Positions 4,541 to 29,483 of a stretch of 32,973 nucleotides of DNA are shown here, piece by piece. This DNA comes from an uncultured Gammaproteobacteria bacterium (GTDB taxonomy: Bacteria > Pseudomonadota > Gammaproteobacteria > GCA-001735895), in NCBI GenBank assembly GCA_937894085.1, contig CALCSG010000337.1, positions 1-32,973 on the forward strand, read 5' to 3'. A program made the translations under genes and the position numbers. Numbering within the stretch: the stretch's first letter is position 1; each line of letters opens with the position of its first letter. The notes under the pieces were generated by a model. It worked only from the letters and a program-made list of their open reading frames with translations. It was not told the origin of the DNA and made no database searches.

Positions 4541-4542
4541 AA

Positions 4543-7500
4543 TTAAATGGAACCTCCTGCTTTATAGTCACCAACATTTACCGCCACCGCCAACCCCATC
4601 ACCGCAAAATGGATCCAGCAATCCAACACGGGCTTTTCTGATACAGCCTCAACAGCCTCTTTATAAAGCTTGAGTTGCCCCGAATATTTCAATGCTTCCG
4701 TCTCAGACTCTTTTCGAGATTTAGGTGATGATTTATGATCAACAATAATAAACCCCTCATCGGTTTCGATTAACGCATCGATCCATCCGGTAACAAACTG
4801 TCCATTGGGCATTTGATACTCTATCGGATATTCAAGCAGTACTTTTTTTGCTTTCAGGTGATTACTGGTAAACTTTCTAAACCTTTCTGCAAGCTCTAGC
4901 GCGTCATTCGCAGTAATAGAATTATCCACGTCATGTGCACGTAATATGCTTGTCACCAGGTCATTATCTATGGCTTCATCGTGGATCATATTCACCGCGA
5001 TAACCGCATGAATTGCCGAACCCAATTGAGCCATATCTTTGATATTAGACATAGAGACTCGATCACCTAGCTCTATCGCTTCGGTAACTTTGGCAGTTTC
5101 TATCGCTATTTGTGATGAAGGAGAGATGGTTGCCGGTAACTTTTCAGTTTTTGCTGCTGATTCTGGAAACCAGAACAAGGGTTCTTTTTTGATCTGAATA
5201 TCTGCCGTGACTTCTTCATCAGCATATTCTTTGAACTCTGTCGGGATCGTGCCTGCTTTTCCGGGTAATTCTAATTCATCTCCTTGTGGCAGCATCCACT
5301 CAGTGGCACCTACCGAGTCAAGCCACTCACCTTCTGGTTTTTGCATTGGCAGGATCAATAGTTCACTGGGTCGAGTAAAACTGACGTACATTAGACGCTT
5401 ATCTTCTTCTAAGGCATTTTTGTGTTCTTGTATGCCTACAGAAGATTCTTCCACTCGATCTTTTAATGCGATACCTGTAGCTTGCTTGCCAAATGTCCAT
5501 GGCCAGTATCTTAGTGCTCGACCTTTTAATGGCTGACTGACATCTAGGTCATTTGATTGACTGGTTACTCTTAAACCCCATAATCGACTGCGTACCTTTT
5601 TATGTAAATCCAGTGCAATTACTACAGGCCATTCCAATCCTTTAGCTCCATGGTGGGTTAACAGTTTTACGGCTAGCTGACTATTTGCTGCCTCCATTAA
5701 ATCAATATCTTCGCTGGATTTCCCATTGAGCCAAAGTATCAGGCCTGCAACAGTCGCTGGAAGTTTTTCTGATTGACAGAATTGCTCATATTCTTCAGCC
5801 ATTAGCTCTAACTGATTTATGTTCTGCAACCGCTGACTGGCACTACGGTAAGTATTTGACCATTGCAATACTATTTTACGCGCCTGTATGGTATTGATGA
5901 CTACGCTCAATGCTTCAGAAGGCGTTAAGTGGCTTAGTCGGTGACCTTGTTGCTCAAGGTTCTGTACTATCGCTGATTCACGCCCCCATTCGGATTCTTT
6001 GTAATCTTCATTCTGAATAAAATCAAGACGGGCATTCAGCCATTCTTCCGGTTCTTTGCATTCACTCAATACCAGCAGTTCTGTCACTGACAAGCTGTCT
6101 CTTTTTGGATCGAGTAAAAAGCGGAGTCCTGCTAAAATGAGGGTAGATTCTGGTGTACTCAATAAGCCTGATGTCTTCCTTGCTGTGGGTATGCCCCAGG
6201 CATCCAGTGTAACTGCAAGATTGTCGAGCGCATCATTGGATCTAGCCAGTACCGTTATATCGCCATATTGTATTGGTCGCGAAATATTATGGTGCCGATC
6301 CTCTATCGGGTAACCAGAAGCCACTAAGGATTGTATGCCTTGTGCCAGGTTGTGCTCTCTTTTCCCTGCATTTGAGCCTTTCAACTGCCAGTAAGCGACA
6401 GCGGGGGTTTTCTTTTTTGATGTGAAAGCAGGCGTTAAACGTACCCTGTCTTCGGGTAATGTATTTGAAAAAGCAGGCACAAATATTTCATTAACATAAC
6501 TCACTAGCTCTGGGCACGAACGCCAGGAGTTTTCCAACACTTCTACTTTGCCACCCTTTTTTTCCAGTTGCTCGATAATACCGATCATTAATTCAGGATC
6601 AGAACCACGAAACCCATAAATTGCCTGCTTAATATCGCCTACCCAAATAACCTTTTTAGCCAACTGCGCTAGTTTTAGAAATAATGCTAATTGAATGGGT
6701 GAAGTATCCTGAAATTCATCAACCATGAGCAGATCTAATTCGTCTTGCATCACTGAAGAAACCGCAGGATTATCCAGTACCTGATAAAGCAATTGTTCCT
6801 GATCGACAAAATCAATCATACCTTTCTTTTGTTTCATGCTTTGAAACTGTTCTAATGATTGCGAAGCAATCAGGAATATATCATTAATAAAAGTTTTTAA
6901 GTCATTCTGAAAATTTGAATTCTTTTCAAATTCCGAAGCAATTATTGAAACAGGTTCGGCAATAACTTCACTCTTTTTAGCAGGACCTGACTTTGACAGT
7001 TTTACCCAATCTGCCCAACAGTATCGCTGGGTTTTCAGCTTTCTCTGACAATCCTTTATAAATGATACATACCCTCGTGTTCCTTTGGTTTTATCAACTT
7101 TAAGATCAATATTTGCAATTGCAGTTTGTATAGCTGATAGCAATTCAGCATTGAGATCTCTTTTACTAGCCGCTGGTAAGAACTTGAATAGTTCATCAAT
7201 ACTTGTTTTGCTGAATGCCGCTAACTGAGCGGAGGGTAGATTATTCGCTCTCGCCGTTTGCACAATGCCTTTTACTTCTTTACGCCAGTCATCGATGCTA
7301 AGTCTTTGCGCAAGAGCATTCATAGACTTAACCTTATCCAACGTCAGAACAGACTCAAGAGCAACTGCGAATAAATGTTCAGCCGCTTGCTCTTCTATTA
7401 CGTTTTGCACAGGTGACAACCCTGCTTCAAAAGAAAAACGTTTGAGTAATTGACCGCAAACACCATTCACCGTACCGATGAGAGCCTGCTCCATTCTTAC

Positions 7501-7725
7501 TGCCAGGTCGTTATGCCCCGTTTCATTGAGGCGCTGCCTCACACGTCCACGTAACTCATTGGCGGCCAGTTTTGTAAAGGTAGTCGCAATAACGCCTGAG
7601 GGTCTAAATTCATCGGCCTGTTCTATGAGTAATTTGCCCAGGTCTTGCGTCAGTCTATAAGTTTTTCCACTGCCTGCACCGGCACTGATGAAGGTAATGT
7701 TATCCATACTCGTTTCTATAACCAT
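4543..7725 (-). CDS. UvrD-family helicase with C-terminal RecB-type nuclease (AddA-like)
   Basis: This 1060-residue protein is an SF1A helicase fused to a PD-(D/E)XK nuclease, the architecture of AddA and RecB. Helicase motifs in order are Walker A (AGAGSGKT, K21), motif Ia (TTFTKLAANELRGR), DEFQDTS near residue 335, motif III (VGDIKQAIYGFRG), motif IV (NSWRS), motif V (THHGAKGLEWPVV) and motif VI (LMYVSFTRPSE). The nuclease has a RecB-like H in GSAIHAV, then GWID, VDHKSS and a downstream QLKLY. The start lies within GGAGGAAGTCGTAATGG and overlaps the upstream AddB-like stop by one base; a second Met at residue 7 is an alternative. Housekeeping AddA/RecB processes double-strand ends at Chi. 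A plasmid copy in an operon with PLD and SNF2 genes suggests defence rather than repair, which is inference. Confidence 0.92.
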   Translation of the reverse strand: MVIETSMDNITFISAGAGSGKTYRLTQDLGKLLIEQADEFRPSGVIATTFTKLAANELRGRVRQRLNETGHNDLAVRMEQALIGTVNGVCGQLLKRFSFEAGLSPVQNVIEEQAAEHLFAVALESVLTLDKVKSMNALAQRLSIDDWRKEVKGIVQTARANNLPSAQLAAFSKTSIDELFKFLPAASKRDLNAELLSAIQTAIANIDLKVDKTKGTRGYVSFIKDCQRKLKTQRYCWADWVKLSKSGPAKKSEVIAEPVSIIASEFEKNSNFQNDLKTFINDIFLIASQSLEQFQSMKQKKGMIDFVDQEQLLYQVLDNPAVSSVMQDELDLLMVDEFQDTSPIQLALFLKLAQLAKKVIWVGDIKQAIYGFRGSDPELMIGIIEQLEKKGGKVEVLENSWRSCPELVSYVNEIFVPAFSNTLPEDRVRLTPAFTSKKKTPAVAYWQLKGSNAGKREHNLAQGIQSLVASGYPIEDRHHNISRPIQYGDITVLARSNDALDNLAVTLDAWGIPTARKTSGLLSTPESTLILAGLRFLLDPKRDSLSVTELLVLSECKEPEEWLNARLDFIQNEDYKESEWGRESAIVQNLEQQGHRLSHLTPSEALSVVINTIQARKIVLQWSNTYRSASQRLQNINQLELMAEEYEQFCQSEKLPATVAGLILWLNGKSSEDIDLMEAANSQLAVKLLTHHGAKGLEWPVVIALDLHKKVRSRLWGLRVTSQSNDLDVSQPLKGRALRYWPWTFGKQATGIALKDRVEESSVGIQEHKNALEEDKRLMYVSFTRPSELLILPMQKPEGEWLDSVGATEWMLPQGDELELPGKAGTIPTEFKEYADEEVTADIQIKKEPLFWFPESAAKTEKLPATISPSSQIAIETAKVTEAIELGDRVSMSNIKDMAQLGSAIHAVIAVNMIHDEAIDNDLVTSILRAHDVDNSITANDALELAERFRKFTSNHLKAKKVLLEYPIEYQMPNGQFVTGWIDALIETDEGFIIVDHKSSPKSRKESETEALKYSGQLKLYKEAVEAVSEKPVLDCWIHFAVMGLAVAVNVGDYKAGGSI

Positions 7726-10439
7726 TACGACTTCCTCCAGCCAGTCAGTGCCCCGTAATCGCTGTAATAATCGTTACTATCAGGTATTGGCAATCCATCT
7801 TCTCCCGGTTGTGAGTTTTCATCAGGTTCTGAATTTTTTATAGTGACCTCAATCACTCCCTGGTTGATCTGCACCTGTCGCCACTGCCAGGTATGTTTTA
7901 TTCGTTGCCAAACCTGTTTGATATTTTCATCTGAATTTTTATTCACTACCCAGGCTTTAGGAAAGAATTCATTGTTGTGAGATAACAGAACAGCATCATC
8001 AATAATGAAATAGGCTACTGGTGGCCATCCCTGAGATTTCAACTTCAGATCTCTCAGGTATGAATAGATGACGAGTTGTAGGTGTTTGTTCTCGCTGAGA
8101 TCATTTTCTTTATACTTTTTTCCTCCCCATTTGATATCAATAATGGCTTCTAACCCGTCACTATTGACTACTCGAACATCAATGGAGCCTGAAAGCATAC
8201 CTCCGAAAAATACACCTTCGTTGTAACCTTCCATTTCTATTTCAACTACTTTGGCAGCACGTAACTGTCCAATTAGTTCAAATAGTGATCTTCTGGTCGT
8301 TTCTTCAAATCGGGCTTTTTCAATCGTTCGACCCGGTTGCAATAGCACCAGTCCTTCCTGATTTAATAGCTGGTTAAAGGCTTCGTCAAACCAGTCATTG
8401 ATAGATTTATTATCTAATTTTTTATCTGTGAGAACATGGTTGTTATTTAAAAAAAATAATTCATACAAATGGTGAACCAATGTGCCTTTCAGCAAATTGC
8501 CATCTGCTATTTCAACCAGCGCACCTGACCTCAGCCGTGCTTTATAATTTAAAATCCATTGATAAGGACTTTTGAACATGAGCTCCAGGCTGGAGAATGA
8601 CTCACGCTCTCTTTTCCCTAAATTCTTATCCGGTTTTATTTCCCACCACCGGCGATAGGCTGGTAGAGAATTAAATTCAGAACCCTGCATATTTGCACTC
8701 TCTTTACTTAGAGAATTTCCTGTTAGTAACTCATCATCCAGAGTTATTGCTTCCCACCCATCCATACTACTAATCATTTGATCCACCAGAGGATGTTGAT
8801 TTTCACAGTCATCATGCAGGATGAGCATGAGTTTCTTTGTGGCCGATAAGATGGGTTTCATGCTATTAATAGCATCCATTTTATACAAATCTTCGGGCAT
8901 GATTAAATCCACGCCATTTGATTCAAGACATTCAACTTCTGATTTTGAGAATGGATTTACAGGCTTACTTTGCCCCTGAATATCCCACCAAATCACCGTA
9001 TCAAAGTGACTTATAAACGTTGATGGGGTCGTTGTCGCTACTAAATTTATGGGCTTGTCTGGTGAGCATTCAGCATAGCGGTCGATTAAGTCGGTACCGC
9101 TGCCGGTCACTTGCTCAATCAAATAATGGATTTGCTCAGATGATAAAAGCATTTCCTGATCTTCAAAGTGCCCCAGGACAACCGCTAATTCATTTACCTG
9201 ATTATTAGCAGCTCGAAATAGTGCAATCTGGGCTTCATCATTATCAAGCGCTAATCGCCTGGCGATCCAGTCGACTATCAGTAAAGTTCGATCATGTAAA
9301 ACATCTAAAGGAATACCTTCAGTGACTTTATATCTCTGTGGGTTTAGCCAAAGATCAATTACTTCCCTAATTTTCTTTTGCGAAGCTTCATCATCTTTTT
9401 TCAGTAACTTTTCTAAGGTTGAATTCCATGATGTGCCATTCATCCCAGGGCTATCTGCTACGACAGAGGCCAGTGCCCTTCTCAGGCCTTTTGGTATAGG
9501 GGCATAAGGTAGTAGCAAAAATCCTAATAAGGTTTCCGGGTTAAGCGGTTCCCAGAGCAAATCAATTGCCAATGGAAGTAATTGTAGTAAAGGCCGTGCT
9601 GAAGAATATCGTTTGAACCCTGACCGGGGTAAGTTAAATCTTTCAAAAGCTTCATCAAGTTCTACGCCATCGCTACTTGAAAGTAATGCTGTATTTTCTG
9701 AATCCGAATTTAAAAATGATGCTACTGCTAAAGCTGATACAGACTTTGAACCGGATTTAACAACCTGAACACTGCCATCATTTTTCAGGATTGGTTTAAC
9801 AATATCTTCCGAGTTATTTAAAGCAGGCTCTCCGGACTGTAACTCTATGAGTGTCTGCTGTAAGCGTCTTAAATCAGTTCCGGCTTCAGCTTTGGGTGAC
9901 AGAACATCCACTTTCCTTTCATCAAATGAACGAATGACCAATCTCCATTTTTTTGGAAAATTAGCGATAGGATCAATTAGCTGTAACTCATTAATTTGAG
10001 TTTTCTGATGCTGTAGAGCTGTGAGTACAGCCTGTAACCTTTCACCCTCTCCTGGAGCTAGCGGTATTTGACTTTGCTTTTCTATATCCGCTACATCAAG
10101 CAATTTTTTCTCGTTTCCTGATGTTAAATTATCGTTCCTTATCTGGCCATTCCAGCCTCCTGAATACCATTGATCTCTCCAGTTCAATAGTTCGGCAGCT
10201 ACATTAAATTTATCTACCAAGCAACTTTTCTCAAAAAAGCGTCCCTCAATACCTGCTGACTCCATTCTTTTCAGGTAGCTCACTACTCTTGATGTATATG
10301 AGCTATCCCGAACAGGAATACCCAACTGTGTTTCTAATATATGTAGAAACCCATCCGGGCCAACAGTTTTGATCCCAAGACGATTTTCTTTTTTATGGGG
10401 GTTCATGCCATCGGCATGGAGTCCAAAGATTATTTTCAT
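7725..10439 (-). CDS. PD-(D/E)XK nuclease, AddB-like partner
   Basis: This 904-residue protein is the likely heterodimer partner of the downstream AddA-like enzyme. The C-terminal third holds a RecB/AddB/Cas4-type nuclease fold: LKGTLVHHL (His), GSID, IIDIKWGGKKY and a QLVIYSY helix. The N-terminal two thirds resemble an inactivated helicase scaffold and show no Walker A, as expected of AddB. AddB enzymes normally carry a four-cysteine iron-sulphur staple around the nuclease. Here I find no cysteine in the last ~320 residues, so that cluster appears absent. The start is preceded by AAAGGAA eight nt upstream. A 70-nt gap separates it from the WYL gene and contains a candidate operator. The AddB assignment is from architecture and gene order; nuclease activity is well supported by motifs. 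Confidence 0.82.
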   Translation of the reverse strand: MKIIFGLHADGMNPHKKENRLGIKTVGPDGFLHILETQLGIPVRDSSYTSRVVSYLKRMESAGIEGRFFEKSCLVDKFNVAAELLNWRDQWYSGGWNGQIRNDNLTSGNEKKLLDVADIEKQSQIPLAPGEGERLQAVLTALQHQKTQINELQLIDPIANFPKKWRLVIRSFDERKVDVLSPKAEAGTDLRRLQQTLIELQSGEPALNNSEDIVKPILKNDGSVQVVKSGSKSVSALAVASFLNSDSENTALLSSSDGVELDEAFERFNLPRSGFKRYSSARPLLQLLPLAIDLLWEPLNPETLLGFLLLPYAPIPKGLRRALASVVADSPGMNGTSWNSTLEKLLKKDDEASQKKIREVIDLWLNPQRYKVTEGIPLDVLHDRTLLIVDWIARRLALDNDEAQIALFRAANNQVNELAVVLGHFEDQEMLLSSEQIHYLIEQVTGSGTDLIDRYAECSPDKPINLVATTTPSTFISHFDTVIWWDIQGQSKPVNPFSKSEVECLESNGVDLIMPEDLYKMDAINSMKPILSATKKLMLILHDDCENQHPLVDQMISSMDGWEAITLDDELLTGNSLSKESANMQGSEFNSLPAYRRWWEIKPDKNLGKRERESFSSLELMFKSPYQWILNYKARLRSGALVEIADGNLLKGTLVHHLYELFFLNNNHVLTDKKLDNKSINDWFDEAFNQLLNQEGLVLLQPGRTIEKARFEETTRRSLFELIGQLRAAKVVEIEMEGYNEGVFFGGMLSGSIDVRVVNSDGLEAIIDIKWGGKKYKENDLSENKHLQLVIYSYLRDLKLKSQGWPPVAYFIIDDAVLLSHNNEFFPKAWVVNKNSDENIKQVWQRIKHTWQWRQVQINQGVIEVTIKNSEPDENSQPGEDGLPIPDSNDYYSDYGALTGWRKS

Positions 10440-10490
10440 TTAATATTTCCTTTTACTAATTTTATTTTTGTTATTTTACAACCCACCTAA

Positions 10491-10503
10491 GACAAATTAT
10501 GTC
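10491..10503. promoter_or_regulatory. Candidate operator GAC-N7-GTC in the WYL/AddB-like gap
   Basis: GACAAATTATGTC forms a GAC/GTC dyad separated by seven A/T bases. It lies in the 70-nt gap between the regulator and the effector genes. A similar dyad (TGCGAC-TAAATAT-GTCGCA) lies upstream at 11795-11813. WYL regulators of the BrxR/CapW kind repress their own defence operons by binding dyads, so this is a plausible binding site, but it rests on two short matches. Confidence 0.35.
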
Positions 10504-10509
10504 GCTCAG

Positions 10510-11502
10510 CTAAGCATTATATTTATCGAACATTGCTTTGACCATTTCAATCATTTCTTTTCGAAGTTTTGCCGGTTGTTTTACCTCAACACCATCCCCA
10601 AACCCTAGTAACCACCAGCGTAGCTGCTGGGTATCCTTTACTGTCGCAGTGAGCAAACTACTGTTTTCATCAATTACCTTAATTACCTGATCTTCACTTA
10701 GTGCGGTTTCCTGTAAATGTTTGGCAATATATTTATTGATCAGTAATTTTAGCCTGATGCTTTTATCCTGCTCGATATAATCAAACTCTCCACTTTGAAT
10801 ATAGGTATCCAGATGAAAGCTTATTTTTTTAACCGTTTTATCTAACAGTTTTATGTCACTCATCCTGTGCAGCACTAGCTGCTTGATATCACTATAGCCC
10901 CAAAGCGTTGCCAACAGATAGATAACTTGATCTCGAATAACCAGCCCCCGTGGACTAACTTCATATTCTTGTTCTTCACCATGTCTCGGATGGTATGTGA
11001 CATGAAATTGCTTATCCATCAGCAAAGCCTGATAAACAGTATCAATGACGGTTTCTTTTATGTCAGGGGGTAAAAGATGCTGAGTTCTAGATAACACCCT
11101 AATTTTATTTCTCCACTGTTTGAGCTTCTTCCCTTTCATTCCATCTAAAACATTTCCTGCAAGTTTAATGTGAGAACTGATGTTATTTAAAATTTCAGGT
11201 GGCATTAACAGACCCAGAAATTTTTCACTTAAATAAAAAGTCATCGCAGTATTAATATCCATTGAGGGGAGATCGTATACAGGAGAATTCTTTGACCATG
11301 ACCAGCCGAAGGGCTTGTCACGTTCATCACTTATTAATGGAAAATTTTTAGAGAGCTTTATAAGATCACGTTGAATGGTTCTATCGGTAGTATCATAGCC
11401 ATGGACATTCAATTGCTTATTGATTTTTTGAACAGATACTTTTCTCGGTGATCGCGGAATAAGCTGTAACATCACCCAATGCCGATATAAAACATCACTC
11501 AT
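10510..11502 (-). CDS. WYL-domain transcriptional regulator
   Basis: This 330-residue protein has the DeoR/YafY-like layout: an N-terminal winged helix (about residues 1-65, including GYDTTDRTIQRDLIKLS), a linker, and a WYL domain at about 145-215 (FHVTYHPRHGEEQEYEVSPRG, then IYLLATLWGY), followed by a WCX-like C-terminus. The start ATG is preceded by AGAGG at a good distance. It is the first gene of the minus-strand operon. Family knowledge: WYL domains sense nucleic acid or nucleotide ligands, and the BrxR/CapW relatives keep defence operons silent until infection. I infer the same role here, which supports reading the downstream nuclease genes as a defence locus. Confidence 0.9.
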   Translation of the reverse strand: MSDVLYRHWVMLQLIPRSPRKVSVQKINKQLNVHGYDTTDRTIQRDLIKLSKNFPLISDERDKPFGWSWSKNSPVYDLPSMDINTAMTFYLSEKFLGLLMPPEILNNISSHIKLAGNVLDGMKGKKLKQWRNKIRVLSRTQHLLPPDIKETVIDTVYQALLMDKQFHVTYHPRHGEEQEYEVSPRGLVIRDQVIYLLATLWGYSDIKQLVLHRMSDIKLLDKTVKKISFHLDTYIQSGEFDYIEQDKSIRLKLLINKYIAKHLQETALSEDQVIKVIDENSSLLTATVKDTQQLRWWLLGFGDGVEVKQPAKLRKEMIEMVKAMFDKYNA

Positions 11503-13135: not shown

Positions 13136-13182
13136 CTCGTCACTAAAGCAGCGAGCTTCTAAAAGAGCTGTTTACACAGCTC
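13136..13182 (-). other. Right-end hairpins of the decayed TnpB element
   Basis: Two adjacent dyads: CTCGTCAC-TAAA-GCAGCGAG (13136-13155, imperfect) and a perfect GAGCTG-TTTACA-CAGCTC (13165-13182). On the minus strand they end in GAGTAGTTCACC. Subterminal hairpins overlapping the 3' end of tnpB are typical of IS200/IS605 elements, where they serve TnpA recognition and form the scaffold of the guide RNA (omega RNA). This is the likely transposon boundary, near 13126. Confidence 0.55.
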
Positions 13183-14617
13183 GATTGTCTATTTAGCGCA
13201 TCCACGGTTGTTGCTTTCTGAGTTGAAAGACTTACAAAACCTTCGCAACCTAAAGACGGCAATTCCACCACCTTCTTTCTCCTAACACTGGCTTTACGAA
13301 CAGTCTTCTCTTTTGAAAACTTTCCTGATCGTATCAGCATGATTCCTCGTTTTTTTATTACCTTTGACGCATTGTAATCGGCATTGTCTGTATGACCACA
13401 GGATAAACATTTAAATTCTGATTGAGAGGGCCTGTTTTTCTTTTCAGTGTGCCCGCATTTTGCACATTCCTGACTGGAGTAATGGGGTTTTACCTTTAAG
13501 AACAATTTGCCTTTGAGCTTTAATTTATACTCTGCAAAAGACCTTATCTGACCCAGGTTTACATTCAGCAGGGATTTATTTAATCCGGATTTAGCTTTAG
13601 CGCCGTTGCGTAACCAGTGCCCGGTTTCCGGGCATGGTTTTGCTTTGGGCCGTAAAACCATATTATTGAGTTTCAGCGCTTCAAAAACAACGACCAAAGG
13701 CGCTGAATCAGCAATATCTTTTGAAATATGGTGCGAGGTATTTCTACGGATATGGGCGATCTTTTCCGATTGCTTTCGTATTTTAGCCTGTTGTTTTTGC
13801 TCGCCCTTTGTGCGCTTTCGCTGAATGCCTGACTTCTTATCATTGGCTCTGGCCATCCGTGCATAACGGCGTTGGTATTTGCTTTTCTTTCTTTCAACAT
13901 CGAGTAAAGATTTTTGTACGTCTTACGGCATATGATAAACAAAACCTTTTGATGAAACGGCTTGTTTATTAATCCCAAGGTCGATGCCCACCACGGCCTG
14001 TTCCAGCTCTTTATGGGTTAAGGTGGATGCAATGTGCTCCACTTCTGATTGGGTTAAATCTTCATTACTGTAATCATAGGCCATGGACAACCAGAACCGA
14101 GAACCCTTTCTGGATAAGAAGAAAGCTTTCCCCGCTTTCTCTTTGGGAAAGGGTAAGACTACCCCGGCTAAATAACGACCATGGTCTTCTTTTTTATCAC
14201 TACGTTTAATCTGAACCAGACATCGATCATCATCGATATGCTGGACATCGAACAATTCGTTGGTGACGTAACAATTACGCTTTTTATGTTTGGCTTTGAC
14301 TTTGGGCTTTTTACGCAATCCGACTAAAGCCGCATTCATGGCTTCAAACCATTTTGCCCCGGCATTACGTCGGATCTGGGAAGGAATGTCCGAGAGGAAC
14401 TCAAAACTTTGCTTTAGTTTGGCAACCTGAGTGTTAATAATGGCTTTCCTGATTCCGGTTTACCCGCTTCTAACCATTCCTTGTAGCCCCTGTCCGCTTC
14501 CATTGTTTTCTGATTGTAAATTACGGTATAACAACCAATCCAACGGGCAAGCTCTTGCGCTGCCTGGCTGGACAATTGATGGGTTATTTCAACAGAATGA
14601 CCTAATTTGGTTTGCAT
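13143..14617 (-). pseudogene. tnpB: tnpB-like RNA-guided nuclease gene, decayed
   Basis: An IS605 OrfB/TnpB of about 490 residues, broken twice. It begins MQTKLGHSVEITHQL at 14617. Near 14440 the frame shifts: after KPESGKP the family sequence resumes in another frame as IINTQVAKLKQSFEFLSDIP. At 13923-13925 an in-frame TAA interrupts VYHMP-stop-DVQKSLL where the family usually has Glu, consistent with a single GAA to TAA change. RuvC landmarks remain readable: Asp in VGIDLGINKQ, Glu in VVVFEALKLNN and Asp in NADYNAS, with a zinc ribbon CAKC...CLSC between the last two. The start codon directly abuts the right end of the neighbouring TnpB element, so this gene has lost its native upstream region. 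Confidence 0.85.
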
Positions 14618-14736
14618 TCGGAACTCATCAAATCCCCCGTCATACCTGTTCCAGACAGGCATTAGGTTGATCTAAACTTCGCGGTGACACAGCCATGGGG
14701 TAAACCCCTTCGCCGCCAGCGTCGCGCAATTGTGGC
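14618..14736 (-). repeat. TnpB element right end, copy A (guide-RNA scaffold region)
   Basis: This 119-bp stretch covers the last ~97 bp of the intact tnpB and 22 bp beyond its stop. It matches 25337-25456 with about 96-97 % identity. Shared dyads are CCTGT-TCCAG-ACAGG and GGGG-TAAA-CCCC. The homology ends precisely at 14618, next to the start codon of the decayed tnpB, which fixes the right-end boundary. In TnpB systems this region is transcribed as the omega RNA scaffold and the bases just outside the boundary become the guide. Confidence 0.7.
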
Positions 14737-15908
14737 CCCTTTGTTCCTACGGGTGCCAATTGGGTTAACCCTTTGATTTCTGTATTTTTAGCTGCATTAA
14801 TATCTCGATCATGGACTACACCGCATTGCGGGCATGTCCAGGTTCGGATTTTCAGCGTCAGCTTTTCTGCTTTGTAATCACAACCCGGTGTTGAGCACAG
14901 CTTACTGGACGGGAAGAACCGGTCTACTTTAATCAGGGTTCTGCCATACCAGTCAGATTTATATTCCAGTTGTCGGGTGATTTCACCGAAGGAGACATCC
15001 AGGATAGAACGGTTTAAACCAGATTTTTGCTTAACCTTTTTACCAGGATTATCGAGGGTTCCCTTACTGCTACGAGACAGACCGGATACATTCAGATCCT
15101 CAATCATGATCACTTGGTTATCGTTGATCATGCGTCGGGTTATTTGATGAATGTATGCATGGCGTTCATCGGCAATACGGGTGTGTAATTTTGCAATGCG
15201 GAATTTGGTTTTTAAACGGCGGTTTGACCCTTTCTGTTGTCGGGCCAAGCGTTGTTGTAAACATTTGAGCTGAACTTTCTTTTTCAATAAATGGCGTGGA
15301 TTAACAAACTGGGCACCGTCAGAGAGTGTCATGACTTGATTAACACCCAGATCAATACCAACGGTTTTACCCACTGCCGGCAAAGATTGAATAGCTTCTT
15401 CAACGGCCATTGATACAAAATACCTACCTGCTGAATCTTTGCTGACAGTGACCATCTTGGGCAGTCCTTCCGGTACCCTGGTCCAGCGTACCTTGATCTG
15501 TCCAAGTCCGGGAATCTTGAGCAGTTCACCGGCTTTGTAATTTTTAACGATCACGCGCTGGTCTAGCTGAAAACGAATGGACTGCAGCTGGTGACGACTC
15601 TTAAATCTGGGATAACCAGCACCTTCTTTGAAGAATTTCCGAAAGGCTGCATCCTGATCTCTCAAGGCCTGACTATAAACGGTTGTCGGTGTGTCTTTCA
15701 ACCAACGGTAAGACTCCAGCTTTTTAAGCTCAGTCAGCCCCCGGCTAAAATCGATGCCAGTGACTGATTCGAAATATTCTTTATAAATATTTGATCGCCA
15801 GGCCAGGCAGGTATTCCAGACAAAACGCTTTGACCCAAAAAAACGGCTCAATAATTGAATCTGTGTTTTGTTTGGGTAAATTCGATATTTATAGGATCGA
15901 CGCTTCAT
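14640..15908 (-). CDS. tnpB: TnpB, RNA-guided DNA nuclease (IS605 OrfB family), intact
   Basis: This 422-residue protein, starting MKRRSYKYRIYPNKTQ, is complete by family length. An N-terminal wedge/helix-turn-helix part is followed by a RuvC-like nuclease with Asp in VGIDLGVNQ, Glu in MIEDLNVSGL and Asp in HDRDINAAKN. A zinc ribbon (CSTPGC...CPQC) sits before the last Asp. All catalytic residues are present. Two further in-frame Met codons lie 3 and 13 codons upstream; I chose the Met beginning the conserved KRRSYKYRIYP start. Family knowledge: TnpB uses an omega RNA from the 3' end of its own element to cut DNA next to a short target-adjacent motif and helps retain the IS after excision. 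The C-terminal ~30 codons overlap the RNA scaffold region. Confidence 0.92.
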   Translation of the reverse strand: MKRRSYKYRIYPNKTQIQLLSRFFGSKRFVWNTCLAWRSNIYKEYFESVTGIDFSRGLTELKKLESYRWLKDTPTTVYSQALRDQDAAFRKFFKEGAGYPRFKSRHQLQSIRFQLDQRVIVKNYKAGELLKIPGLGQIKVRWTRVPEGLPKMVTVSKDSAGRYFVSMAVEEAIQSLPAVGKTVGIDLGVNQVMTLSDGAQFVNPRHLLKKKVQLKCLQQRLARQQKGSNRRLKTKFRIAKLHTRIADERHAYIHQITRRMINDNQVIMIEDLNVSGLSRSSKGTLDNPGKKVKQKSGLNRSILDVSFGEITRQLEYKSDWYGRTLIKVDRFFPSSKLCSTPGCDYKAEKLTLKIRTWTCPQCGVVHDRDINAAKNTEIKGLTQLAPVGTKGPQLRDAGGEGVYPMAVSPRSLDQPNACLEQV

Positions 15909-16021
15909 GAGTCTCATTATAATGCACAGAGAACATATTGAGAACAATTAAAGCGAAGTTATTTGATTTATGAAAGCTATTTGGCCTGTGTTTCTCCTAC
16001 GCCAACCGTCTCAGCGGGGTC

Positions 16022-16055
16022 GTCGGCTCCTTGCCTCCTTCGAGGTACGCCCGAC
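16022..16055. other. Hairpin upstream of tnpB, candidate left end
   Basis: GTCGGC pairs with GCCCGAC around an inner stem CCTC-CTTC-GAGG. It lies about 110 bp upstream of the intact tnpB. IS200/IS605 left ends contain such subterminal hairpins. No second copy is seen in the window to define the boundary. Confidence 0.4.
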
Positions 16056-21849: not shown

Positions 21850-22262
21850 ATGCCGCATTATTCTCCTAGTACTTTAAAGTATTTATTAGTATTTAATAGT
21901 AGCAACACTTTCAGCGTTGCTCTTTGTAATATAAATAAAACTAAAAACCAAACCAAGACCGATTCCAATCCACTGAATAAATTAAATCACAAGATATTAA
22001 ATAATACCCGAAAAGGGTACTCAGAAAAAACGGAATTCAGCATGAAGTGTAAGACAATAGGATTCTTTAACGGGAAGCTTCATGCAAACACCAACAAATT
22101 CAATACGATTAGCTGCAATATCGGATTATCACGGTACAGCAATAATCATGCTTACTGTTACCCAAAAAAATAATCCCTAACAAACTGAAAATAAAACTCG
22201 CCATATCCGGAATTGTTGCCATCTTTTTTTGTTATTTCCTGATGACACTATTTTTATATTAA
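21850..22262 (+). CDS. Doubtful small gene with a possible -1 frameshift tail
   Basis: A 107-codon frame starts at 21850 just after the iterons and stops at 22171-22173. It has no clear Shine-Dalgarno and an Asn/Lys/Ser-rich composition that AT-rich noncoding DNA can give. Its last codons are CCA AAA AAA TAA, which contains the slippery heptamer A-AAA-AAA immediately before the stop. Slipping back one base would add 30 residues (IIPNKLKIKLAISGIVAIFF and ten more) containing a good membrane helix, ending at 22262. The tail frame has no start codon of its own. Either a frameshifted membrane protein or chance. Confidence 0.25.
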
Positions 22263-22277
22263 TTTAGATTATCCTTT

Positions 22278-23240
22278 ATGATTGAACCCAAAAAAGAAAC
22301 TCTTGAGTTAGACAGAGGCCTGGTTGAAGAGCTGCTGCTATATTCAAATAATGAATTAACTCGAATACGACGTAATCGGATCTTTAATTATTTCGTAAAA
22401 GGAGGCCTTGTAGTCGGTGTATTAATGATTGCCTATATTATAGGTGGAACAAATGTAGGCGGAGCTATGGGGGATAAACACAAACATCACCTTGCTTATG
22501 TCGAGATCTATGGCCCCATTGCTAGTGGCCAGCTGGCGGATACTAATCGACTAATCCCTTCGCTACATAAAGCATTTGAAGACCCTTTATCAAAAGCCGT
22601 CGCATTGCGTATTAACTCGCCAGGTGGATCACCCGTGCAAGCGGGACAAATGTACAAAGAGATTAATAACCTCAAAGAAAAGTATCCAGATAAACCTCTG
22701 TATGCAGTTATTGAAGAGCTAGGTGCATCAGCTGCTTACTACATTGCTTCTGCCGCTGACAAAATATATGTCGATCCAGCATCAATGGTGGGTTCTATAG
22801 GTGTGATTTCTGCCGGCTTTGGTTACAGCGATGTCATGGAAAAAGTGGGTGTAGAACGTCGAGTGCTCACGTCTGGTACTAACAAGTCATTACTGGATCC
22901 TTACTTACCTATCGATCCAAAAGTAGTCGACTACTGGAAAGAAATGCTCAATGAAATTCATGGACAGTTTATAGCGGCTGTTAAAGAGGGTCGAGGTGAC
23001 CGATTAAAGGCGGATTATCCCGATCTTTTCTCCGGGTTAATCTGGACCGGGCAGAAAAGTATTGAAATTGGATTAACTGATGAAGTAGGGAGCATGGCAA
23101 GTGTATCCCGCGCTACTGTGGATAATTTAAATATAGTGAATTACACACCATCCCCCGATTTACTAAAACAACTGGTCGATAGTACCCACGCAATGGTATC
23201 TGCAGCGAAATACAGCATGATGACCCCTCAACTGTATTAA
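22278..23240 (+). CDS. S49-family membrane peptidase (SppA/SohB-like)
   Basis: A 320-residue protein with a short cytoplasmic N-terminus, one transmembrane helix (about 41-57) and an S49 protease domain outside. The catalytic Ser is S151 in ELGASAAYYIASAA and the general-base Lys is probably K203 in SGTNKSLLDPY. RINSPGGSP is the conserved glycine-rich stretch. Short S49 proteins cleave membrane-bound peptides or membrane proteins. The start lacks a strong Shine-Dalgarno. It is followed 20 bp later by a DsbA-like gene and then a small membrane protein, probably one operon. S49 and Dsb-type genes are often carried on conjugative elements, but no transfer gene is in view. Confidence 0.9.
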   Translation: MIEPKKETLELDRGLVEELLLYSNNELTRIRRNRIFNYFVKGGLVVGVLMIAYIIGGTNVGGAMGDKHKHHLAYVEIYGPIASGQLADTNRLIPSLHKAFEDPLSKAVALRINSPGGSPVQAGQMYKEINNLKEKYPDKPLYAVIEELGASAAYYIASAADKIYVDPASMVGSIGVISAGFGYSDVMEKVGVERRVLTSGTNKSLLDPYLPIDPKVVDYWKEMLNEIHGQFIAAVKEGRGDRLKADYPDLFSGLIWTGQKSIEIGLTDEVGSMASVSRATVDNLNIVNYTPSPDLLKQLVDSTHAMVSAAKYSMMTPQLY

Positions 23241-23260
23241 ATATACAAAGGAAAAGAAAT

Positions 23261-24109
23261 ATGAAAAAACTTGTAATCTTATCCTGGGTGTTGGCGATAT
23301 CAGGCATTACTGCAGCTGCGTATGCTAACTACCAGGTGACACAACTAAATACAATGGTGACAGAGCTTCGGAGCCAAAACCAATTCAACACGATGCTTGA
23401 GAAAAATGCGCCCGAATTTAATGATCATATACAAAAGCGTATTTCGGTCTTTATTGATAATGAGCGCAAGAAGGTTGCCCAGGCAAAATTCAACAAATAT
23501 AAAAGTGCAAGTACATCACTTTCAAATGAAGGCAAGCGTATATATGGTTCGGAAAAAGCACGTTATACGCTGGTTGAATTCTCGGACACAGAATGCCCAT
23601 ATTGTAAAAAGTTTCATGACACGCCCAAACAGTTGGTTGATGCGTCGAATGGACTGGTGAACTGGGAATGGAAGCACATGCCTCTGGGATTTCATAATCC
23701 ATCAGCACTGCAAGCATCCGTTGCGGCAGAGTGTGCTAATGATATTGGCGGTAATCAGGCATTCTGGACATTTTTGCAATCTGTGTTTGATACAACCAAA
23801 GGAAACGGGCAGGGGGCAGGTAACTTGATAAATCTGGCAATGGATTTAAATCTTGATACGGAAGCCTTTGCAAAATGCTTAAAAGATCCAAAGCATCTGG
23901 AAAAAGTACAAGCCGATTTGCAACATGCTGAGTCGATTGGTGTGAAGTCAACGCCGGTTACTTATATTGTGGATAACAAGACAGGCCGGCAACTTAAAAT
24001 GAAAGGTATGGTGAAGCCTGTGGCACTGGTATCCGCTATTCAAAAACTGAAAAAAGAAGCTGATGATGTGTCTTCCTCAGAATCAGCAAAGCAAGAAAAA
24101 AAGGGGTAA
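23261..24109 (+). CDS. DsbA-like periplasmic thiol oxidoreductase
   Basis: A 282-residue exported protein. An N-terminal signal or anchor (residues 1-22, ending AYA) is followed by a coiled-coil region to about 85, then a DsbA/thioredoxin-4 fold with the redox motif C112-P-Y-C115 and the cis-proline loop KSTPVTYI. The CPYC dipeptide is typical of thiol oxidases. The C-terminus is charged and Ser-rich. An AGGAAAAG Shine-Dalgarno precedes the ATG. It probably forms or shuffles disulphides in cell-envelope proteins, perhaps together with the S49 protease in assembling a plasmid-encoded surface structure (inference). Confidence 0.88.
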   Translation: MKKLVILSWVLAISGITAAAYANYQVTQLNTMVTELRSQNQFNTMLEKNAPEFNDHIQKRISVFIDNERKKVAQAKFNKYKSASTSLSNEGKRIYGSEKARYTLVEFSDTECPYCKKFHDTPKQLVDASNGLVNWEWKHMPLGFHNPSALQASVAAECANDIGGNQAFWTFLQSVFDTTKGNGQGAGNLINLAMDLNLDTEAFAKCLKDPKHLEKVQADLQHAESIGVKSTPVTYIVDNKTGRQLKMKGMVKPVALVSAIQKLKKEADDVSSSESAKQEKKG

Positions 24110-24114
24110 TAGCA

Positions 24115-24342
24115 ATGGGGATATTTAACTGGAAAAACAAAGCAACTGACCCACAGCAACCGCATACAACGCAAACAGTAAATTATGCGATTCCTTACTA
24201 CAGAATAATTCGAGTAAGAATGTTCTGGATCATTCTATTTTTTATTCTGGGCGCAACTTCGCAGTTTTTATTGGCTGTATATATACCTGATTTGTGGAAC
24301 TATATTTATGGTGTATTTGCCAAAAATGTTCCAGCTCTTTAA
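24115..24342 (+). CDS. Small single-pass membrane protein
   Basis: A 75-residue protein with a hydrophilic N-terminus and one transmembrane helix at about 38-60 (FWIILFFILGATSQFLLAVY). It starts 5 bp after the Dsb-like stop, with GGGG/AGCA spacing that suggests translational coupling. I recognise no family. It is probably a partner of the S49/Dsb pair. Confidence 0.7.
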   Translation: MGIFNWKNKATDPQQPHTTQTVNYAIPYYRIIRVRMFWIILFFILGATSQFLLAVYIPDLWNYIYGVFAKNVPAL

Positions 24343-24417
24343 TGAATTTTAACCTAAATTGTATTGTGTAATAAAAAATTTAGAGAGAAACTATATTGAC
24401 AAATATCTGTAGACTGA

Positions 24418-24531
24418 TTGAGGCGATCCCGTACCGAGGAGTTAGAAGCGAAAATCGATGGTAGTCAGCCAGCAGGTTGGGTTTATGAATATATGGGGTA
24501 TATTAATACTACCAATGATCAGTATTTTTAG
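24418..24531 (+). pseudogene. Possible gene remnant before kfrA
   Basis: A 37-codon frame that opens only with TTG and reads coherently as EELEAKIDGSQPAGWVYEYM and on to NDQYF. It lacks its own Shine-Dalgarno. It ends 4 bp inside the convergent KfrA-like gene. It could be the tail of a small gene that lost its start. Support is weak. Confidence 0.25.
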
Positions 24532-25148
24532 ATGTTTCGCAAATTGCGGTTGTCTTCTTTTATTTCAGAAAGATCTGCTTCAAGTTTACTTAGTGCCTTT
24601 TCTTGAGCTGCTATTGTTGCCTGGGCAGCGGCTAACTCTTTCTCGGCAGCGTGCCCTTTTTCAATAGCTGCGGATAATTTATCATCAGACTCAGTTTTTG
24701 CTTGAGTGGAATCAATAACCCTTTGTTCGAGTGCTGCAATATCTTTGGCATGTCGAATATCAATACCGGAGAGTTGTTGGTTTTTTTCTTTAAGCTCACT
24801 TTCAAGAGAGTGAATCTTCTCTTCTAGCTCAGAGCGCAATAAGTCACTTTCATCAAGCAATAATGAAACAGATTTATATTGTTCTGTAATTGTTTCCTTT
24901 CCATCTTTGGCCGCTTGAAACAAAGCCGATTTAAGTTCATCCGCGAGATTTACAGGCAACTGAATGTCTCTGTTTGCCTCCTTTTCGGCGACATCAGCAA
25001 GATAGGCCTTGAGGTGAGCTTGAATGGTACCTTTGCTCCCGCTACCGAGCCTTTCCCTAATTCGATCCAGAGATGGGTTGATGCCCTCTGCCTTTAAATC
25101 ATTGTAGGTAGTAGAAACCAGATCTTGAGTGATTTTTGAAGTTGCCAT
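24528..25148 (-). CDS. kfrA: KfrA-like DNA-binding coiled-coil protein
   Basis: A 206-residue protein. Residues 1-55 match the KfrA N-terminal DNA-binding domain (ITQDLVSTTYNDLKAEGINP, then GSGSKGTIQAHLKAYL). Residues ~95-200 form a long heptad-rich, Glu/Lys/Ala coiled coil. KfrA on IncP-type plasmids is an autoregulated, filament-like segregation accessory factor. The gene's own upstream region carries a dyad operator at 25169-25218 that overlaps a TATACT -10-like box on the minus strand, consistent with autorepression. Confidence 0.87.
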   Translation of the reverse strand: MATSKITQDLVSTTYNDLKAEGINPSLDRIRERLGSGSKGTIQAHLKAYLADVAEKEANRDIQLPVNLADELKSALFQAAKDGKETITEQYKSVSLLLDESDLLRSELEEKIHSLESELKEKNQQLSGIDIRHAKDIAALEQRVIDSTQAKTESDDKLSAAIEKGHAAEKELAAAQATIAAQEKALSKLEADLSEIKEDNRNLRNI

Positions 25149-25168
25149 GTTTATCCAGGATTAAGTAA

Positions 25169-25218
25169 AGATTTAACTGTACTGATTTAAATAGTACAGT
25201 ACGGTACAGTATAAATCT
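25169..25218. promoter_or_regulatory. kfrA operator region
   Basis: Nested repeats upstream of kfrA: an outer AGATTTA/TAAATCT pair, an inner ACTGTAC/GTACAGT pair, and a second GTACAGT at 25204-25210. KfrA proteins bind inverted repeats in their own promoter, so this is the likely site. Confidence 0.65.
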
Positions 25219-25336
25219 AGTTGAAAGAATGAAACAAAGAAACAAATGAATCTATTGGGCGACAATAATTCCGGGGTTACTTTTTCAAGCTGTAGAAAAT
25301 ACTGTGATTCGCTATGGAGATAGTAGGACAAGTCAA

Positions 25337-25456
25337 TCGGAACTCATCAAATCCCCCGTCATACCTGTTCCAGACAGGCATTAGGTTGATCTAAACTTCG
25401 CGGTGACACGGCCATGGGGTAAAACCCCTTCGCTGCTAGCGTCGCGCAATTGTGGC
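25337..25456 (-). repeat. Orphan copy of the TnpB element right end (copy B)
   Basis: A 120-bp near-identical copy of 14618-14736, in the same minus orientation. Differences are three or four substitutions and one inserted A. The inserted A enlarges the loop of GGGG-TAAAA-CCCC but keeps the stem, and it shifts the former tnpB reading frame. No tnpB body and no recognisable left end lie next to it. It could be a deletion relic, or a free-standing guide-RNA scaffold used in trans by the intact TnpB. Its potential guide, read outward on the minus strand, begins TTGACTTGTCCTACTATCTC. Confidence 0.75.
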
Positions 25457-25526
25457 AGCTTGGGGTAATCCTGGAAATAATCTAGATAGAGGGGAAGAAG
25501 TGAAGACATTATTATCCGAAATTAAA

Positions 25527-25766
25527 TTACGTTGTCTCAGCATCACAAAGCAGGGCAGCCCATTCATCCTTTGTACCAAAAGAAAGATAAAGAATTGATC
25601 TTCTATAAATAAAAAAATGTATTGAGCGGTACAAAATAATTCTAAAAAATGCTATAAAATGGCCACCTCTTGAAAATTTGTGGGTAACTTTGGCAGAATA
25701 CAGAATATTATTGTAAGTCTTTGAGTTATTAAAAATACCGAGCGACAGCTCTTCTTTATTTCTCAT
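25527..25766 (-). CDS. Doubtful small protein
   Basis: About 79 residues starting MRNKEELSLGIFNN, basic and aromatic with a hydrophobic middle (HFIAFFRIILYRSIHFFIY), ending GTKDEWAALLCDAETT. There is no Shine-Dalgarno. I do not recognise it, and it may be a remnant or noncoding. Confidence 0.25.
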   Translation of the reverse strand: MRNKEELSLGIFNNSKTYNNILYSAKVTHKFSRGGHFIAFFRIILYRSIHFFIYRRSILYLSFGTKDEWAALLCDAETT

Positions 25767-25818
25767 ACTCAAAAACTATATGATCTTTTTTAGTCGTCCT
25801 TTTTCCATCACCATTAAA

Positions 25819-25907
25819 GTCGGTCGCACCCGTACACCCTGGCTGGCGTAGACAGTGAGGGGCAAAAGGGCGACGTAAATCTTGCTCCGACCCTGAAGCT
25901 GAAGGAG
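25819..25907 (+). ncRNA. Candidate structured leader or small RNA
   Basis: A GC-rich island in AT-rich DNA in which nested helices can be drawn: GTCGG/CCGAC (25819-25823 with 25887-25891), TCG+CCC with GGG+CGA, CCCT/AGGG, and an inner CTG/CAG. A terminator-like hairpin follows directly at 25908-25946. The same strand also has a frame without stops across it, so a decayed coding segment is an alternative. No known riboswitch class is recognised. Confidence 0.3.
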
Positions 25908-25946
25908 TTGGCTCTCCCACTAATTTTCTTGAAGAGCCAAGTTTTT
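25908..25946 (+). terminator. Terminator-like hairpin upstream of the 143-residue gene
   Basis: Perfect 8-bp stem TTGGCTCT/AGAGCCAA with a 17-nt loop, followed by GTTTTT. It lies 17 bp upstream of the GTG at 25963, so it could attenuate that gene or end the structured RNA before it. Confidence 0.5.
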
Positions 25947-25962
25947 AAAAGATGGGTTTACA

Positions 25963-26394
25963 GTGAAATATTTTTTAAGAGACTTTAGAGGAAGTAATGT
26001 GCACCAAAATTTCACAATAACCTTACAGGCATGTGGTAAAGATAAAAACAAGCTCTCTGCTCTATTATCTGAACTTGACGCTGAGAAGCGATCTCTTAAA
26101 TCACTTCTTAGTCGTTTGTCCAGTGAGCCAGAAGGAAGCTATGGCAGAGGTAGAGAGCGGCAGGTTAAGATTCGTAAAATGAAAGATAAACTCTCGTTCT
26201 TAACTGAAGAGCGAGAAGCTGTTAGAGAAAGGCTGGGTACTATGAAAATGGATGCAAAAGCGCTTAACAGAGCAACCAATAGTCGTTCAATTGATTTTGC
26301 ACATGCTTTTATAGCTGCTGCTGAACGACTGTTACCAGATGAAATGTTTTTAGAGCTGGAGTCTAGGGCTGCGGATATTTTGTCTTCAGAATAA
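25963..26394 (+). CDS. Coiled-coil hypothetical protein
   Basis: A 143-residue protein with a GTG start, no signal peptide and two predicted coiled-coil stretches (about 28-55 and 65-95) rich in Lys, Glu and Leu, flanking a GSYGRGRERQ linker. I recognise no family. It is followed 8 bp later by a 67-residue gene in the same direction. Composition fits the surrounding plasmid genes. Confidence 0.6.
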   Translation: MKYFLRDFRGSNVHQNFTITLQACGKDKNKLSALLSELDAEKRSLKSLLSRLSSEPEGSYGRGRERQVKIRKMKDKLSFLTEEREAVRERLGTMKMDAKALNRATNSRSIDFAHAFIAAAERLLPDEMFLELESRAADILSSE

Positions 26395-26402
26395 AACTAG
26401 AA

Positions 26403-26606
26403 ATGATAATGATCGGAAAAAAATATGAAATATCAGGTATGACCCTGGAAATTAAAGCTGATGCAGGGGAAGAGTGGGAAATAATAAATACCACAACAAA
26501 GGAAATCATTTACTTTAATAAAATCCAACTTCAAAATGCTATTAAACTCGGTAAGGTCATCGAAATTTTGGATGGTAGTGAAAAGTCCCTGCGTGTTAAT
26601 GCATAA
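26403..26606 (+). CDS. Small beta-rich hypothetical protein
   Basis: 67 residues (MIMIGKKYEISGMTLEIKAD...) that read as a compact beta-rich fold with a final helix. Function is unknown. The start could be either ATG (26403 or 26409), with no strong Shine-Dalgarno. Probably co-transcribed with the preceding coiled-coil gene. Confidence 0.55.
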   Translation: MIMIGKKYEISGMTLEIKADAGEEWEIINTTTKEIIYFNKIQLQNAIKLGKVIEILDGSEKSLRVNA

Positions 26607-26754
26607 TTTATTTAGAGGGGTAATAAATATTCATATATTGGCTGTATAAGCAATTGTTGAGCATTAACCTCTGGTATTTCTCTGGACCCTTATTCGATCT
26701 GTTATTTAAGGTAAACGACTAGAAAAGAAAGAAAAATAGCAGAGGAGGGCAGTT

Positions 26755-27017
26755 ATGCGACATATTGCCGCCGTTCATCGAAATTAAGCCATCGGCATGT
26801 CCATGGACTGGCGCTACAACAACGCAACAAATGAGATTATATTCGAGGGGGTTGGCTCGCTGGAACTCGGTGAGTCGTCCCAAGATGGCTGGGAAGCGAA
26901 TCCGGTGGTGTCCATCTGCCTAGGTGCTGACGTCCCACCTTATTAGACTTCTTCGATTGGAGTGGTGGTTTCTGGGAAGTAATGACAGAAAGATACCCAA
27001 GATTAGTGGTTTTCTAA
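26755..27017 (+). pseudogene. Interrupted small gene (nonsense codon plus frameshift)
   Basis: AGGAGG sits six nt before ATG 26755, the best Shine-Dalgarno in this area, but the frame hits TAA after ten codons (MRHIAAVHRN). The same frame then continues AIGMSMDWRYNNATNEIIFE and on to GADVPPY, stopping at 26944. The adjacent frame carries on coherently as LLDFFDWSGGFWEVMTERYP and ends RLVVF at 27015-27017, two bases before the next gene. The segment is more GC-rich than its neighbours. I read this as one ~87-residue gene broken by a stop and a frameshift. Confidence 0.5.
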
Positions 27018-28430: not shown

Positions 28431-29483
28431 CTAATCAGCTATTGACTGCAAAATAGAGGTCCACTTATTCGACAGCTTTGTGAAACCCTTTTGATGACCT
28501 ATCCATACTAAGCCATAATTATCTGAACACTGTTTATACGCCCATTTTGACACAGATATAGATGTGCTTAAATCGTGAGTAAGCTTCTGATCATCAAAGT
28601 AACTAGACAGCATATCTCCTGAAACCAGGTTCCGTTTTACCCATTTATCTAAAAAATTCTCTGATGCAAGATAATCACTTTTATCACCATTGCAGTTCTT
28701 ATGTGATAGCACAAAATTATGTCCCAAATCTACTGCATATCTTGCCCAGGGTATGAAATGATCTACTTCAGGAGCCCCTCTGATCTGCCTGTCACAATAG
28801 AAGCAATTATTGTGTTGTTCTTCTTTTAATACAGGAATAAAAAGCTGTAAATTAGAACGCTTTGATTCAAATAAAAAGCTCTCAAGGTTAATATTCTGTC
28901 CCAACATTGCCTGGTTATTAGTTGCTTTCTGTATCCAGCGTATCCAGGCACTGTGAACCATATCTGTTATTTGTCCGTAGAATTTCCTGAAGCAATAACT
29001 GACGCCAGGCATAAGTGTAATCACGTTTCCTTTAGCAGTCTGTAAGTATAAGAACTCTACAGTCGAATCACTGACAACCTGCAGTTTCCATAGAGGCATT
29101 TGCTTGATAGTATTTGAAACAGAAGTCAGTAATTGCCTGTATTCCTGGTGGGACTTGAAAATAGATAATTTTGAATTAACTTTTCTTGCCTGCTGTATCT
29201 GGTTGATGATTGCAGCCTGATTACCATTATTCTGGTATAGAACATCTGAGTCACTTTCATTCGGAAACTTTACCGTTTGCATCCAGTACAAATCTATAAA
29301 CTTTGCAGCCAGTGCTTTTGTAGTGATAGTCAGCTCTTCATTATTATCAGAGCCTGTTTCAATACAGTGGTCGGCTATGGCATGAAGTAATGCAAATTTA
29401 TAAGTTGATACGAATACACCTTCTTTCAGGATACGCTGGATGTTTTGTAAAAACTGGATCTGGTATTCGTAAGAAGGTTGCAT
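28431..29483 (-). CDS. HNH endonuclease-domain protein
   Basis: A 350-residue protein with a C-terminal HNH/His-Me finger: CFYC, then EVDHFIPWARY, and NFVLSHKNCNGDKSDYL, giving the catalytic His and the Asn/His positions around a zinc knuckle. The N-terminal ~210 residues are helical and unrecognised and may recognise a substrate or partner. Its start lies 9 bp after the HIT-family stop. HNH domains cut DNA or RNA. The coupling to a HIT hydrolase suggests a nucleotide-linked defence or maintenance unit (inference). Confidence 0.82.
   Translation of the reverse strand: MQPSYEYQIQFLQNIQRILKEGVFVSTYKFALLHAIADHCIETGSDNNEELTITTKALAAKFIDLYWMQTVKFPNESDSDVLYQNNGNQAAIINQIQQARKVNSKLSIFKSHQEYRQLLTSVSNTIKQMPLWKLQVVSDSTVEFLYLQTAKGNVITLMPGVSYCFRKFYGQITDMVHSAWIRWIQKATNNQAMLGQNINLESFLFESKRSNLQLFIPVLKEEQHNNCFYCDRQIRGAPEVDHFIPWARYAVDLGHNFVLSHKNCNGDKSDYLASENFLDKWVKRNLVSGDMLSSYFDDQKLTHDLSTSISVSKWAYKQCSDNYGLVWIGHQKGFTKLSNKWTSILQSIAD

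Follow-up and report, generated by a model that had tools for sequence, protein, structure and literature searches.

The free-standing right-end (RE) copy beside the kfrA-like gene of this contig is very probably an inert truncation relic. It would be left over from the 3' end of a second IS1341-like element of the kind found elsewhere in the window, and has drifted since. The window is the whole stretch analysed, 32,973 nt, and comprises all of contig G000:C337 of a 6.0-Mb draft genome. An earlier note had offered two readings of this copy (hereafter the orphan), either a deletion relic or an orphan guide RNA that the intact TnpB could use in trans. These data favor the former: a sister genome carries the same truncation, the sequence is under no detectable constraint, its changes break predicted base pairs, its guide has no target in the genome, and shorter RE tips occur in the same genome. 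The trans-acting guide RNA found no positive support, with no excess conservation, a damaged stem 1 and no genomic target.

The orphan and the intact tnpB element

The orphan is a 120-nt RE copy of the tnpB element at about 16045-14618 on the same strand (Table 1). A blastn search of the genome with it hits the intact element's RE at 96-97% identity, with an E of about 1e-50, far beyond chance. A direct-repeat search recovers the same relationship in two stretches, 14615-14708 / 25334-25427 at 97% and 14697-14741 / 25417-25461 at 87%, spaced by 10719-10720 nt. The roughly 120 bp of free-standing RE-like sequence that had been described is thereby confirmed, as is its distance of 10.7 kb from the intact tnpB. 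It was also correctly said to lack a tnpB body and a left end (LE): tblastn recovers the last 25 codons only, and a search with the LE of the intact element found none nearby. An Rfam search of the orphan at gathering thresholds returned no family. The same exact RE end, ...TTCCGA, meets six different flanks, namely those of the intact element, the orphan, contigs C198 and C397 of the same genome, and contigs C13 and C131 of the sister genome G002, which shows that the guide proposed in the earlier note, TTGACTTGTCCTACTATCTC, begins at the correct base. As in an omegaRNA, the RE scaffold ends exactly at the element terminus and the flank follows as guide.

Table 1. Window positions of the orphan RE copy, the intact element and associated features.
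Feature	Position	Strand	Description
Free-standing RE/omegaRNA scaffold copy	25337..25456	-	Ends exactly in RE terminus ...GAGTTCCGA at 25337; truncated 5' within what were C-terminal codons of tnpB
Guide-position sequence past RE terminus (TTGACTTGTCCTACTATCTC)	25317..25336	-	Old insertion-site flank; 1 nt differs in G002
Truncation junction	25456..25457	-	Abrupt stop of tnpB homology; same base in G002
KfrA-like plasmid gene, downstream of orphan	24528..25148	-	Same strand as orphan; syntenic in G002
Apparently intact IS1341-type element, tnpB only	14618..16045	-	LE about 16045-15909; RE terminus at 14618
TnpB, apparently intact, 422 aa from ATG	14640..15908	-	GIDLG (184), IEDLN (269), DRDINAA (367), zinc-finger cysteines
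Guide position of intact element	14598..14617	-	Within first codons of second, broken tnpB (ATGCAAACCAAATTAGG...)

The 1.43-kb intact element holds tnpB alone, with no tnpA (Y1 transposase) within it. Judged by its sequence, the TnpB is apparently intact and has kept its catalytic motifs: the RuvC D-E-D motifs and Cys pairs are present, aligned with a solved TnpB-like chain, both Pfam domains exceed their cut-offs (OrfB_IS605, 84 bits; Cas12f1-like_TNB, 78 bits), and the NCBIfam guided_TnpB model NF040570 scores 326 bits against a cut-off of 100. The left border near 16045 was set where five copies begin to agree (GAAGGAGGCAAGG), and is thus accurate to a few bases. The bases just before the LE in these five copies are ACCTC, ACCTT, GCCTT, TCATT and TCCTT, making a YCCTT-like motif the putative TAM. 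A second, distant tnpB at 13143-14662 is broken, its coding sequence spread over three reading frames. The intact element seems to lie right at the start of this gene, hence the placement of the element's own guide position.

The window element resembles known IS200/IS605 elements of the tnpB-only (IS1341) type with an RE-encoded omegaRNA/reRNA, in that the scaffold overlaps the tnpB 3' end, the RE terminus is followed by a flank-derived guide, a hairpin is capped by UUUA, and the protein belongs to the Pfam/NCBIfam TnpB families. The orphan, unlike these elements, lacks both tnpB and LE. The RE layout differs from that of plasmid relatives at 40% identity (L065-L071), which instead possess ..TTTA..GGGGAG..GTCAA-type ends; here the scaffold (14618-14746) lies within the tnpB C-terminal extension and ends in GAGTTCCGA, and the family features a GGGGUUUACCCC hairpin about 80-90 nt ahead of the guide. 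The omegaRNA scaffold of ISDra2 TnpB is 116 nt long; it has a stem 1 and a long hairpin of stems 2/3, and its 3' segment folds back to form a pseudoknot (PMC10097598). The present scaffold is of similar size and stem order, with the stems matched by layout only, and an equivalent GAA/UUC pairing is possible.

A sister copy with the same truncation

Searches of the genus, family and class identified close relatives in only one sister MAG, G002 (SI039_bin4). Its contig C91 is syntenic with window positions 22148-26809 (4.7 kb, 96.5% identity). The free-standing RE recurs there, with the junction ...CCCCAAGCT/GCCACAATTG and the downstream flank both shared. That the two replicons have the truncated copy and its junction in common shows that the orphan was inherited and is older than their split. 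Elsewhere in G002, contig C131 holds what appears to be a complete element whose TnpB is 70% identical, a TnpB fragment at 96% identity runs off contig C92, and contig C13 opens with the RE of a tnpB copy. Across 41 family genomes the orphan locus was found only in G002, and neither an ancestral full element nor an empty site was detected in these genomes, PLSDB, INPHARED or IMG/VR. Likewise, blastn of the orphan and its flanks against PLSDB and phage records gave no match, nor did IMG/VR scans with the RE tip, the right flank and the left flank. The full ancestral element that the earlier note envisaged in a related replicon was therefore not found; the sole relative located already has the truncated form.

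We suggest that a full element once sat at the orphan site beside kfrA, and that a deletion, or partial repair after loss of the element, removed the LE and nearly all of tnpB. This event would have ended 120 nt before the RE terminus, leaving behind the RE/omegaRNA scaffold and its adjoining flank. The truncation preceded the split of the window replicon and G002:C91, since when the fragment has drifted and pairs have been lost from the stem 1 region. The orphan presumably lacks function. Counting against this account are the missing ancestral site, the absence of changes in the 3' half of the scaffold, and the fact that the truncation spares roughly the whole structured scaffold (120 nt, compared with 116 nt in ISDra2), which is a mild coincidence. 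A truncation must end somewhere, and neither the scaffold length, the unchanged 3' half nor the missing ancestral site requires selection.

Comparison of the two orphans shows 4 substitutions plus 1 insertion across the 120 nt of the scaffold (3.3%) and 1 substitution in the 20-nt guide. The noncoding sequences alongside have substitution rates of 3.7% and 8.0%, and kfrA one of 1.45%. The orphan scaffold is thus about as diverged as its surroundings, with no conservation in excess of the neutral flank. In 60-nt bins, all scaffold changes fall within 25397-25456, and the orphans do not differ in the 60 nt at the 3' end; about one change is expected there at the local rate, and zero is expected fairly often. 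The 240 nt adjacent to the scaffold (25457-25696) contain 3 substitutions.

The structural model was obtained by minimum free energy (MFE) prediction and checked by script, and draws on a small set, three tnpB-linked copies set against two orphans. In stem 1, all three tnpB-linked copies preserve pairs 32-35/54-57: pair 35-54 shows a compensatory change on both sides in G002:C131 (C-G to U-A), and pair 33-56 occurs as G.U, G-C and A-U variants. Pair 31-58 is non-standard in C131. Each of the four lineage-specific substitutions in the orphans turns a standard pair into a mismatch in the predicted stem 1/apical hairpin, namely A.C at pair 33-56 in the window and C.C, G.G and A.C mismatches in G002, where pairs 32-57, 34-55 and 41-48 are hit. 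Neither orphan is predicted to keep the stem 1 pairing of an omegaRNA scaffold. Relative to shuffled sequences, the fold z-scores are -1.87 and -2.95 for two tnpB-linked copies, -0.20 for the third, C131, -1.57 for the window orphan and 0.07 for the G002 orphan; given the values for C131 and the window orphan, folding energy alone is weak evidence. A closing helix, GGGGC/GUUCC, appears in the MFE model and would be lost in the orphan, and was dropped as evidence because it is weakly supported (GU to GC in C13, a break in C131) and a GAA/UUC pseudoknot is an alternative. The covariation test is not extendable to relatives at 40-51% identity, whose RE layouts differ.

The earlier note also described an extra base that leaves the GGGG/CCCC stem intact. 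This is accurate for the window orphan, where the UUUA loop holds the additional base, a T, the GGGG/CCCC hairpin is whole, and the long hairpin and 3' end are unchanged. It does not extend to the G002 ortholog, which lacks the extra base and has a broken hairpin (GGGG to GGAG). Since this ortholog lacks it, the T was most likely gained when the copy was already free-standing.

Guide, targets and alternative origins

The alternative that survives best, improbable as we judge it, is that the orphan is an omegaRNA working in trans, in which a putative transcript would be bound by TnpB, either the intact protein encoded 10.7 kb away or another copy, and its guide TTGACTTGTCCTACTATCTC would aim the protein at a foreign or plasmid target. 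The same contig does encode an apparently intact TnpB, the orphan persists in two species, and in the window copy neither hairpin (long or GGGG/CCCC) nor the 3' end has been lost. However, neither scaffold nor guide is conserved in excess (the guide differs at 1/20 positions), stem 1 is damaged in both copies, and the promoter-like sites, 4 against 2.0 +/- 1.3 expected from shuffles, include none clearly above background. Allowing <=3 mismatches in 18 nt, the guide has 3 other matches in its own genome versus 16 in a reversed-pattern control, and hence no genomic target beyond that control. One IMG/VR contig matches 18 nt of the guide exactly, a match that we estimate to be at about chance level for a collection of this size, and that is preceded by CAAAT, which is unlike the motif flanking the LE. 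In the genome and IMG/VR, the host or phage match contemplated in the earlier note comes down to this lone 18-mer lacking a TAM-like flank. The orphan's own locus is not a usual target, since the scaffold rather than a TAM precedes the guide match, and the flank appears guide-like because every RE precedes its insertion-site flank. A marginally fainter prospect is that a putatively expressed orphan would equip the resident TnpB with a second, fixed guide directed at a phage or rival replicon outside the databases searched.

Altae-Tran et al. reportedly described, in 2021, standalone omegaRNAs in IscB/TnpB systems, comprising scaffold and guide with no nuclease gene. The orphan differs from these in having no genomic target, no conservation beyond that of its flanks, and a damaged stem; the literature searched contained no natural case of exactly this kind. 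A TldR, a nuclease-dead TnpB repressor with a guide RNA, was also considered and rejected: the intact TnpB keeps D-E-D, and no TnpB-like protein is adjacent to the orphan.

Other fragments of the element occur in the window genome. Two bare RE tips with exact 3' ends, of about 40 nt (G000:C198:11051-11089, L029) and 28 nt (G000:C397:7268-7293, L030), are too short for scaffolds, and no empty site was recovered for either, their flanks not being found in other genomes of the genus. An LE-only fragment with 90 N-terminal codons lies on C36 and ends beside an ORF that, on reading its sequence, we take to be an IS6-family transposase. Broken copies of the window tnpB element are thus common in this genome. 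RE-only fragments outnumber LE-only fragments 3 to 1, too few to judge.

PATE/MITE elements derived from IS200/IS605 are gene-less DNA bearing an element end, and the orphan could be conceived as such a non-autonomous unit, mobilized by TnpA in trans. Its exact RE end and the several short RE copies in the genome accord with this, but the short copies have no common 5' border (120, 40 and 28 nt) and the orphan has only one end, whereas excision requires both. The missing LE largely refutes this reading, which we consider very unlikely. No more probable is abortive gap repair, in which TnpB would cut an emptied donor site and the RE would be copied from the flank side with an early stop, such that RE ends come to outnumber LE ends. 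This pattern fits the ratio of three RE-only fragments, precise at the 3' end and variable at the 5' end, to a single LE-only fragment, that beside the IS6-like ORF; yet the copies are far too few and ordinary deletion yields the same products. Moreover, gap repair would be a special route to the same relic, not a function.

Replicon context and implications

The ParA/ParB- and KfrA-like genes suggest that the contig is of plasmid character; its ends were compared for circularity and show no terminal overlap. Just upstream of the kfrA-like gene, at 25165-25215, near-palindromic TACTGTAC/GTACAGTA-like repeats are seen on reading the sequence and are perhaps its operator. On the other side of the orphan, stretches at about 25673-25782 and about 25881-25948 resemble repeats of G019 (C427, C61, C49) in the same order, with about 100 extra bases between them in the window; part of 25673-25948 also matches G000:C225. 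These stretches are perhaps the relic of another mobile element. An operon-like block on the minus strand (1142-11502) encodes a WYL-type regulator, an AddA/UvrD-like helicase and three further proteins, of 904 aa (no family match in the libraries tried), 437 aa (no PADLOC match) and 694 aa (weak ZacB/DrmC similarity), and is possibly a defence island. In a 350-aa protein at 28431-29483, an HNH-like segment shows weak similarity to the HNH models of PtuB/Cas9.

Activity of the orphan in trans, if real, would exemplify a TnpB that draws its second guide from a detached locus. As a relic the orphan is of little importance in itself, but it illustrates that a decayed right end of an IS200/IS605 element readily passes for an orphan guide RNA: whatever flank follows such a fragment automatically looks like a guide. 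Stem pairing, together with divergence relative to the flanks across orthologous copies, provides a useful check on orphan-guide candidates.
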